Shown: positions 22,204-23,795 of the stretch, piece after piece
Layout of the letters: each line of letters begins with the position of its first letter
Position numbering within the stretch: position 1 is the stretch's first letter
Source: Candidatus Zixiibacteriota bacterium
Lineage (GTDB): Bacteria; Zixibacteria; MSB-5A5; GN15; PGXB01
DNA length: 32,871 nt
Assembly (NCBI GenBank): GCA_040753495.1
Contig: JBFMEF010000159.1
Location: 1-32,871 of the forward strand
Direction of reading: 5' to 3'
Notes under the pieces: model-generated
What the model saw: only the letters and a program-made list of their open reading frames with translations
The model's database searches: none
Told to the model about the DNA's origin: nothing
Translations under genes and position numbers: made by a program

Positions 22204-22623
22204 ATGGTAGAGGCAAAACTGAAATGGGTTGGGGGCAGGCGGTTTGAAGGGGTTTCGACCTGGGGCTTTCCGATAGCGACCGATATCTCCAAAAATTCCG
22301 GCGGCGCCGAAAGCGGCTACCGCCCGACCGAGCTTCTGATGTTCGCCCTTGCCGGATGCACCGGGGTTGATGTCGTCAATATTCTGGAGAAGATGCGTCA
22401 GAAGATTACCGGCGTGGAGGTGACTGTTACCGGGCAGCAGCCGGAGAGTTTCCCCAAACCGTTTAATCATATAGAAGTTAAGTATCTTTTCAGGGGCGAA
22501 AACCTGGATAGAGAAAAAGTCCGGCAGGCGGTGGAACTCTCGGAGGGAAAATACTGCTCGGTGAGTCAAACGCTTGCGGGGGTGGCAAAAATCGTATCAA
22601 CTATTGAGATAGTAGAGGAATAA
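22204..22623 (+). CDS. OsmC family peroxide/thiol protein
   Basis: 139-residue OsmC/Ohr-superfamily protein. The two reactive cysteines are Cys52 in LAGCTGVD and Cys118 in KYCSVSQTL. PTELLMFALAGC is the family signature just before the peroxidatic Cys. Members reduce organic hydroperoxides with thiol cofactors; the short YhfA-like branch is less well understood. It is the first gene of a four-gene set with a DUF302 protein one base downstream, a small TGA-containing membrane protein and a zinc-ribbon protein. Confidence 0.92.
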   Translation: MVEAKLKWVGGRRFEGVSTWGFPIATDISKNSGGAESGYRPTELLMFALAGCTGVDVVNILEKMRQKITGVEVTVTGQQPESFPKPFNHIEVKYLFRGENLDREKVRQAVELSEGKYCSVSQTLAGVAKIVSTIEIVEE

Positions 22624-22624
22624 T

Positions 22625-23011
22625 ATGAAAGAGATGGCGTATCGTCGGGAAACCACCAAGCCGTTTGAGCAAGTAACTTCAGAGCTGGAAAAACTTACTC
22701 CGGAGCGGGGATTCCGGGTGCTGGCGATTCATGATACCAAAGCGACCCTGGCAGAGAAGGGATTTGAGATTGAGCCGCTGAAGATATTTGAAGTCTGCAA
22801 CGCCGGCTTTGCTTATAGGGCGCTAGGGAAGAATATCGATACGGCGCTCTTTATGCCGTGCAAGATAGTGGTGCGAAGCGAGAAAGGGAAGACTCATCTG
22901 GCGCTGATGAAACCGTCGCTTATCGCCGAGTTTCTTCCCGGCTCGGAACTGGAGGAACTTGCCGGCGAGGTCGAAAAACAGATTATAGGGATAATGAATG
23001 AAGTTGCCTAA
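22625..23011 (+). CDS. DUF302 family protein
   Basis: 128-residue cytoplasmic protein of the DUF302 family, recognised by FEQVTSELEKLTPERGFRVLAIHD, the KIFEVCNAGFAYRAL strand and FMPCKIVVRSEKGKTHLALMKP. The family has no settled biochemical role and often sits near sulfur or redox genes. Cys residues are present in VCNAG and MPCK. It begins one base after the osmC-like stop. Its end overlaps the next start by 14 bases, so the downstream small gene is translationally coupled to it. Confidence 0.9.
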   Translation: MKEMAYRRETTKPFEQVTSELEKLTPERGFRVLAIHDTKATLAEKGFEIEPLKIFEVCNAGFAYRALGKNIDTALFMPCKIVVRSEKGKTHLALMKPSLIAEFLPGSELEELAGEVEKQIIGIMNEVA

Positions 23012-23186
23012 AAAGAAAATTGCCAAAATCGGCATCGGTGTTATATTAGGCGGGATAGCCGGTATCGGTATCAGTTATGTCTACGGACTGGTGGGGGTGA
23101 CCTGACCGCTGGTCTGTGATACCGGAAGAGCCTTTCTTCTCGGTTCCATAGCCGGTGCGGCTATTGCGATGGTTGATTTGAGGTGA
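22998..23186 (+). CDS. Candidate small membrane selenoprotein (in-frame TGA)
   Basis: The frame starts at ATG 22998 and meets TGA at 23103-23105 (codon 36). It then continues coherently for 26 codons to a second TGA at 23184. Read through, it gives 62 residues with two membrane helices, IAKIGIGVILGGIAGIGISY before and AFLLGSIAGAAIAMVDL after the TGA. The context GVT-(TGA)-PLVCDTGR resembles the CP(L/I) motif of DUF6132-like small membrane proteins, with the TGA exactly where Cys would be; that alignment is from memory. A SECIS-like hairpin follows (23121-23144). It overlaps the DUF302 gene and ends two bases before the next start, as expected of a working gene. The alternative is a 35-residue peptide or a nonsense-mutated pseudogene. 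No selenocysteine machinery lies in this window. Confidence 0.6.
23121..23144 (+). promoter_or_regulatory. SECIS-like hairpin after in-frame TGA
   Basis: ACCG-GAAG (23121-23128) pairs with CTTC-T-CGGT (23136-23144), leaving one bulged T and a seven-base loop AGCCTTT with G at its second position. The loop starts 23 bases after the TGA. As I recall, bacterial SECIS elements need an apical loop roughly 16-37 bases downstream with G among its first two bases, and this fits. Folding was done by eye. Confidence 0.5.
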
Positions 23187-23188
23187 CT

Positions 23189-23395
23189 ATGCCGATTTTT
23201 GAGTATAGATGCCGTTCCTGCGGAAATCAGTTTGAACTTCTGATTTTCAAAACCTCCGAGATTCCGGTCTGCCCAAAATGCGGCGGGGCCGAGACCGAGA
23301 AGATGGTTTCCACTTTTGCTTCCAACGCTTTTGTAGGAAATACCTCCGCGGCCTGCTCCACCGGTTCCTGCAGCAAGAAAAGCAGTTTTGGCTGA
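23189..23395 (+). CDS. FmdB-type zinc-ribbon protein
   Basis: 68-residue FmdB/CxxC-CxxC regulatory-type zinc ribbon. MPIFEYRCRSCGNQFE and VCPKCGG supply the four zinc cysteines. The tail adds CSTGSC, a further possible metal or thiol site. GAGG five bases before ATG 23189 decides the start over the GTG at 23183. It is the last gene of the osmC-like set. A GAGCCG/CGGCTC hairpin (23412-23426) follows without a T-run. Confidence 0.88.
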   Translation: MPIFEYRCRSCGNQFELLIFKTSEIPVCPKCGGAETEKMVSTFASNAFVGNTSAACSTGSCSKKSSFG

Positions 23396-23540
23396 GCTTC
23401 CTGCTGAGTTTGAGCCGGTTCGGCTCGTGAGGATTGTATTGAAAATGCGGGGGACCATTTGCGAGAAAAGGCTGTCAAGAAATCGAATTTGGGGGTGAAT
23501 GAGGGAGAGTGAGAGGGGAGTTGTCGAAACCTAAGAAGAA

Positions 23541-23720
23541 TCTCGACCTGCGAGAGAGCGGCAACCATTAAAGAGGCGTCAGTTCTCACCCCGACAGGAG
23601 TCGGGCTTAGGAACTGACGCAACGTTTCAAGAAAAATTTCGACATACGAGAGAGCGGCAGCCATTAAAGAGGCGTCAGTTCTCACCCCGACCGGAGTCGG
23701 GCTTAGGAAATGACGCAACG
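23541..23720 (+). repeat. Direct pair of 84-bp hairpin repeats
   Basis: Copies at 23541-23624 and 23637-23720 differ at only a few positions and start 96 bases apart. Each carries a hairpin with outer arms GCGTCAGTTCT and GGAACTGACGC (one arm mutated in copy 2) and an inner CCCGAC/GTCGGG stem. This is the same architecture as modules A and B of the 237-bp repeat, with a different sequence variant. Confidence 0.85.
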
Positions 23721-23795
23721 ATTTATGGCACAATGGCGGCTGCCGCAACCTTGATTTCGACAATGGGCGAACGTGCGGGTTCGCCCCTACGGAAG

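Follow-up and report, generated by a model that had tools for sequence, protein, structure and literature searches.

Does the TGA that interrupts a 62-codon open reading frame in the window (by which we mean the whole 32,871-nucleotide stretch of DNA analyzed here) terminate a short peptide, or is it read as selenocysteine (Sec)? The frame contains this TGA, at codon 36, as its only internal stop and is closed by an ordinary TGA; its translation, with U for codon 36, is MKLPKKKIAKIGIGVILGGIAGIGISYVYGLVGVTUPLVCDTGRAFLLGSIAGAAIAMVDLR. A preliminary description, made from sequence alone, had proposed that it encodes a new small membrane selenoprotein in a thiol-redox operon. Our comparative analysis makes it very likely, with a probability of roughly 0.95, that UGA 36 is decoded as Sec to yield a 62-residue selenoprotein; the comparative evidence is strong, and the incorporation of selenium is inferred in the absence of any experiment.

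The gene lies in a compact cassette (Table 1), with its ATG inside the DUF302 frame, which it overlaps by 14 nt, and only two bases between its stop and the ATG of the FmdB gene. The preliminary description thus held as to the 62-codon frame with one internal TGA, both junctions and the neighboring OsmC-type thiol protein. The arrangement is widely preserved in Zixiibacteriota: FmdB is downstream of the family member in all 65 loci, and homologs of OsmC and DUF302 are upstream in 51 and 50 of them, respectively. Just 3′ of the cassette, at 23533-23723, lies a tandem repeat of two 95-nt copies that are 92% alike; this is likely to be a dispersed REP- or MITE-like element, because about 30 related matches occur in the genome, several of them clustered on a single contig (C46).

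Table 1. Features of the probable selenoprotein gene and its cassette, in window coordinates
Feature	Coordinates	Strand	Remarks
OsmC-family gene	22204..22623	+	Pfam OsmC PF02566, E 1.6e-18; first gene of the cassette
DUF302 gene	22625..23011	+	Pfam DUF302 PF03625, E 2.6e-18; directly upstream of the selenoprotein gene
Probable selenoprotein gene (62 codons) for a small membrane protein with two helices	22998..23186	+	Sister group of DUF6132
In-frame TGA, residue 36, very likely read as selenocysteine	23103..23105	+	TGA in 55 phylum homologs and Cys in 10; the codon matches the position of the invariant CP-motif Cys in DUF6132
Cys40 codon, probable redox partner of Sec36 (UxxxC)	23115..23117	+	Nearly every member has its partner Cys either at +4 or a few residues before Sec, but not in both places
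SECIS-position hairpin	23121..23144	+	Apical loop 23130-23134 (GCCUU), starting 24 nt past the TGA; family-wide synonymous-recoding test
FmdB-family zinc-ribbon gene	23189..23395	+	NCBIfam TIGR02605, E 5.2e-15; last gene of the cassette

The principal support for decoding comes from the conservation of the TGA itself. Among 132 genomes of the same phylum, Zixiibacteriota, homologs were recovered in 39 by a single-sequence search and in 65 by a profile search. The position corresponding to codon 36 is occupied by TGA in 55 of these 65 and by Cys in the other 10, which read open through the site, and by TAA or TAG in none; a chance origin of the open frame is excluded by this pattern. In the 55 TGA genomes, which belong to many genera, the frame is maintained on both sides of the codon with no other stop before the common end, and its downstream part includes conserved glycines and C40. 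A sequencing error at the TGA is likewise excluded by these independent genomes. These homologs share descent, and hence neither the 55 TGA cases nor our other counts are independent trials. The two states are also interchanged within the phylum: one family (f15) includes both a Sec form, GSQUMLMC (G111), and a Cys form, GSQCMIIC (G112), and by parsimony the tree requires some five switches between Sec and Cys, of which well-supported branches force at least two. The tree rests on 58 columns only, and many of its forks are unresolved. Within family f1, dN/dS is 0.44 after the TGA and 0.30 before it; this lends only weak support to coding after the TGA, partly because a constrained hairpin would lower dS too.

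Most of the machinery for inserting Sec was found in the genome. It encodes a tRNA-Sec (71.5 bits), which ARAGORN also calls, together with SelB (334 bits) and SelA (487 bits); a second match above the cut-off of the tRNA-Sec model (L002) proved to be a tRNA-Ser. The selA and selB genes stand side by side on contig C48 (G000:C48:58292-61504). No SelD above the cut-off was found in this genome, an incomplete assembly of 221 contigs; it is present above the cut-off in a genome of the same genus, where selD itself carries an in-frame TGA, and in 117 of the 132 phylum genomes. SelA was detected at E<=0.001 in 127 of the 132 (116 above the cut-off), and also in two genomes outside the phylum that have the TGA form of the gene (those of L131 and L126, see below).

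A hairpin begins 16 nt downstream of the TGA, as the preliminary description had stated; its further claim of a G at loop position 2 failed, as the predicted fold places the G at loop position 1. Taken singly, this hairpin is moderately unusual against dinucleotide shuffles (z -2.4) and is not significant against synonymous recoding (p 0.09), so the SECIS case rests on the family. There, we recoded the codons 15–45 nt after the TGA synonymously with local codon usage and found the native RNA to fold at -11.5 versus -6.2 kcal/mol for the recodings (mean z -2.21, n=55), with p<0.05 in 36 of 55 TGA genes. No excess folding at +15..+45 was seen in the Cys homologs (z 0.00, n=10), and upstream control stretches showed little (z -0.24 and -0.43). 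Measured from the UGA, the loop begins at 24.3 +/- 2.0 nt, and in 55 of 55 genes it lies within 16–37 nt, the interval commonly accepted for bacterial SECIS loops. G shows only mild enrichment at loop positions 1 and 2 (49% vs 36%). Applied to the whole set, RNAalifold yielded no common structure for the SECIS position, and when covariation in the hairpin was tested without gaps, only 68% paired in the best register; the synonymous-recoding energy test was used in its place. The lack of a consensus arises because the stem register and loop vary among members. A second small hairpin at +42..+57 (AGCCG-GUG-CGGCU / GACCG-GUG-CGGUC) appears compensatory by eye, and its signal is weak (z -0.65); we make no claim for it. 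Thus, selection on a hairpin at the SECIS position is supported family-wide and is not significant for the window gene by itself.

The TGA form is not confined to one phylum. A TGA-specific DNA pattern scanned over the GTDB genome collection recovered, besides Zixiibacteriota members, one from Candidatus Fischerbacteria (L131) and one from a further bacterium (L126); Nostoc, gammaproteobacterial and Chloroflexaceae matches were rejected as chance, the surrounding protein being missing. In a 386-relative search, four more out-of-phylum genomes (G307, G368, G261 and G236) displayed the TGA form, some with hairpins that look weak, and ten genomes outside Zixiibacteriota displayed the Cys form. 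In all, the TGA form occurs beyond the phylum in six genomes or more.

What kind of protein is this? The window protein has no match in Pfam, falling short of the gathering score of DUF6132 (PF19628), and no model of NCBIfam release 20 matches it convincingly. Seven of its relatives gave weak DUF6132 matches, and the out-of-phylum homolog L126, read with Cys in place of Sec, scored 27.5 against the Pfam cut-off of 23.2. A direct comparison with hhalign of a profile of Sec members (A2, with Sec masked) against one of Cys-bearing DUF6132-type proteins (A4) gave a probability of 98.8 and an E-value of 1.1e-16, with Sec falling on the invariant cysteine of the CP motif; the A4 set was collected with a profile of our own, and both of the rows checked from it exceed the Pfam DUF6132 cut-off. 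This profile comparison shows the family to be a sister group of DUF6132 that has Sec in place of the invariant CP cysteine, and upholds the earlier proposal that the TGA occupies the Cys-before-Pro site of related small membrane proteins.

The layout of cysteines around Sec is suggestive. A cysteine occurs only at +4 in 54 members and only upstream (-5 to -7) in 22; one member has it on either side (-4 and +4), and four lack it on both. Such a distribution is what one would expect if the partner in a redox pair had shifted its position, with a count inflated by shared ancestry. The four members with no Cys near Sec (L085, L086, L089 and L095, in genomes G027, G025, G029 and G026, respectively) are of the GGTUPVMVNP type, and it is conceivable that their partner thiol resides on another protein. 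AlphaFold models the window protein, with moderate confidence (pLDDT 73, pTM 0.43), as two long helices (5–32 and 42–61) with Sec36 in the hinge. Many members bear positive charges at both ends, which suggests cytoplasmic N and C termini; it is likely, as an inference from this charge pattern and the moderate-confidence model, that Sec36 and Cys40 lie at the outer face of the membrane. As to neighbors, the Cys-form gene is adjoined by a thioredoxin in G237, G337 and G277, by secreted thioredoxin-like proteins in G262 and in the Zixiibacteriota families f6, f9 and f10, by DUF302 in G337, by OsmC in G262 and by a rhodanese, identified by eye, in G206; OsmC also adjoins the Sec form in G261. FmdB, too, recurs beside Cys or Sec forms of the gene in other lineages. 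The proposal of a new selenoprotein in a thiol-redox operon is thus supported by thiol-redox neighbors across phyla, with both selenium incorporation and the biochemical role remaining inferences.

Our best explanation is as follows. UGA 36 is very likely decoded by tRNA-Sec, SelA and SelB, aided by the hairpin whose loop lies 24 nt downstream; the product is inferred to be a two-helix membrane hairpin that probably presents the Sec36/Cys40 pair at the outer face; and, as a proposal only, it would act as a membrane-anchored selenol/thiol relay that alternates between a selenenyl-sulfide and the reduced pair, its putative partners being thioredoxin-like, OsmC and DUF302 proteins. Whether thiol-redox relay is the role could go either way, the function being inferred only, and the naming of any exact substrate would be doubtful. 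A bolder reading, which we hold more loosely still and would not expect to prevail on present evidence, is that of a new selenoprotein family in which a minimal two-helix membrane hairpin, with its Sec/Cys pair at the outer face, operates with thioredoxin, OsmC and DUF302 to move reducing equivalents, or else sulfur/selenium, through the membrane or along it. Were it true, this would be among the smallest membrane thiol-redox modules known.

Of the rival explanations, the one that survives best accepts the selenoprotein and gives it a part in carrying or channeling metal, sulfur or selenium in place of redox relay, which remains possible. Such a role would suit a small membrane hairpin, rich in glycine, whose thiol lies at the membrane face, and would also suit the rhodanese neighbor in G206; known Sec-containing proteins include YeeE/YedE and a putative mercuric transport protein (PMC13188914). 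MerF, a small Cys-bearing membrane protein, offers a comparison. Against this, the recurrent thioredoxin and OsmC neighbors fit redox better, and no metal-resistance genes were noticed adjoining in the loci that were read. Hence, the membrane-anchored thiol/selenol relay is the best-supported role, and one cannot rule out a carrier or channel. A second rival, that UGA is read through by near-cognate misreading or under a reassigned code (e.g., as Trp or Gly), gains what force it has from the inability of a reading frame alone to reveal the inserted residue. It is very unlikely: Cys is the sole replacement in homologs, tRNA-Sec, SelA and SelB are encoded in the genome, the fold signal is missing in the Cys homologs, and normal genes end in TGA, as does the selenoprotein gene itself, so the codon is not simply reassigned. 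A third, an ordinary stop releasing a 35-residue peptide with the remainder untranslated or a decayed remnant, is favored by the assembled sequence ending there under table 11 and by the window hairpin not being significant alone, but is very unlikely given the downstream frame kept in 55 genomes, the Cys homologs open through the site and a fold signal specific to TGA members.

If Sec decoding at UGA 36 is accepted, the bacterial selenoproteome apparently gains an unlisted family, whose genes annotation would truncate at the TGA in dozens of Zixiibacteriota genomes and in those of a few other lineages. A 2026 review tabulates 119 families or subfamilies of prokaryotic selenoproteins (PMC13188914, Table 1), and no DUF6132-like small membrane hairpin is among them; the sole match to DUF6132 in the literature searched was an EamA (DUF6) paper, evidently spurious. 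It is thus likely that the family is absent from public catalogs, although its earlier detection under another name is not excluded, as a groundwater selenoprotein survey cited in the review was not covered.

With DUF6132, a family of unknown function, the Sec family shares the glycine-rich two-helix architecture of a small membrane protein and a common set of neighboring genes, namely FmdB, OsmC, DUF302 and thioredoxin-like genes. It differs in having a UGA-encoded Sec where DUF6132 has Cys, and in the partner: DUF6132 has a Cys five residues upstream of the CP cysteine, whereas most Sec-family members, the window protein included, lack it and have a Cys four residues downstream. Three Sec members, two of them from beyond the phylum and the third from within it, retain the -5 Cys. 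Intermediate motifs (CAMGSTUQLTSNP, CTGGTUMMFSNP and CTGGGUSIYSNP, in L092-L094, L136 and L138) pair Sec with a Cys on the upstream side, the layout seen in classic DUF6132. Since Sec usually marks a catalytic thiol, the CP cysteine of DUF6132 is itself probably redox-active, with a partner that can lie on either side. Like the cataloged bacterial selenoproteins (PMC13188914), the family combines an in-frame UGA, a downstream hairpin, Cys homologs and a redox-type context. OsmC-like, FmdB-family and YeeE/YedE selenoproteins appear in that catalog; unlike its OsmC and FmdB entries, here Sec is borne by the membrane protein and not by OsmC or FmdB.
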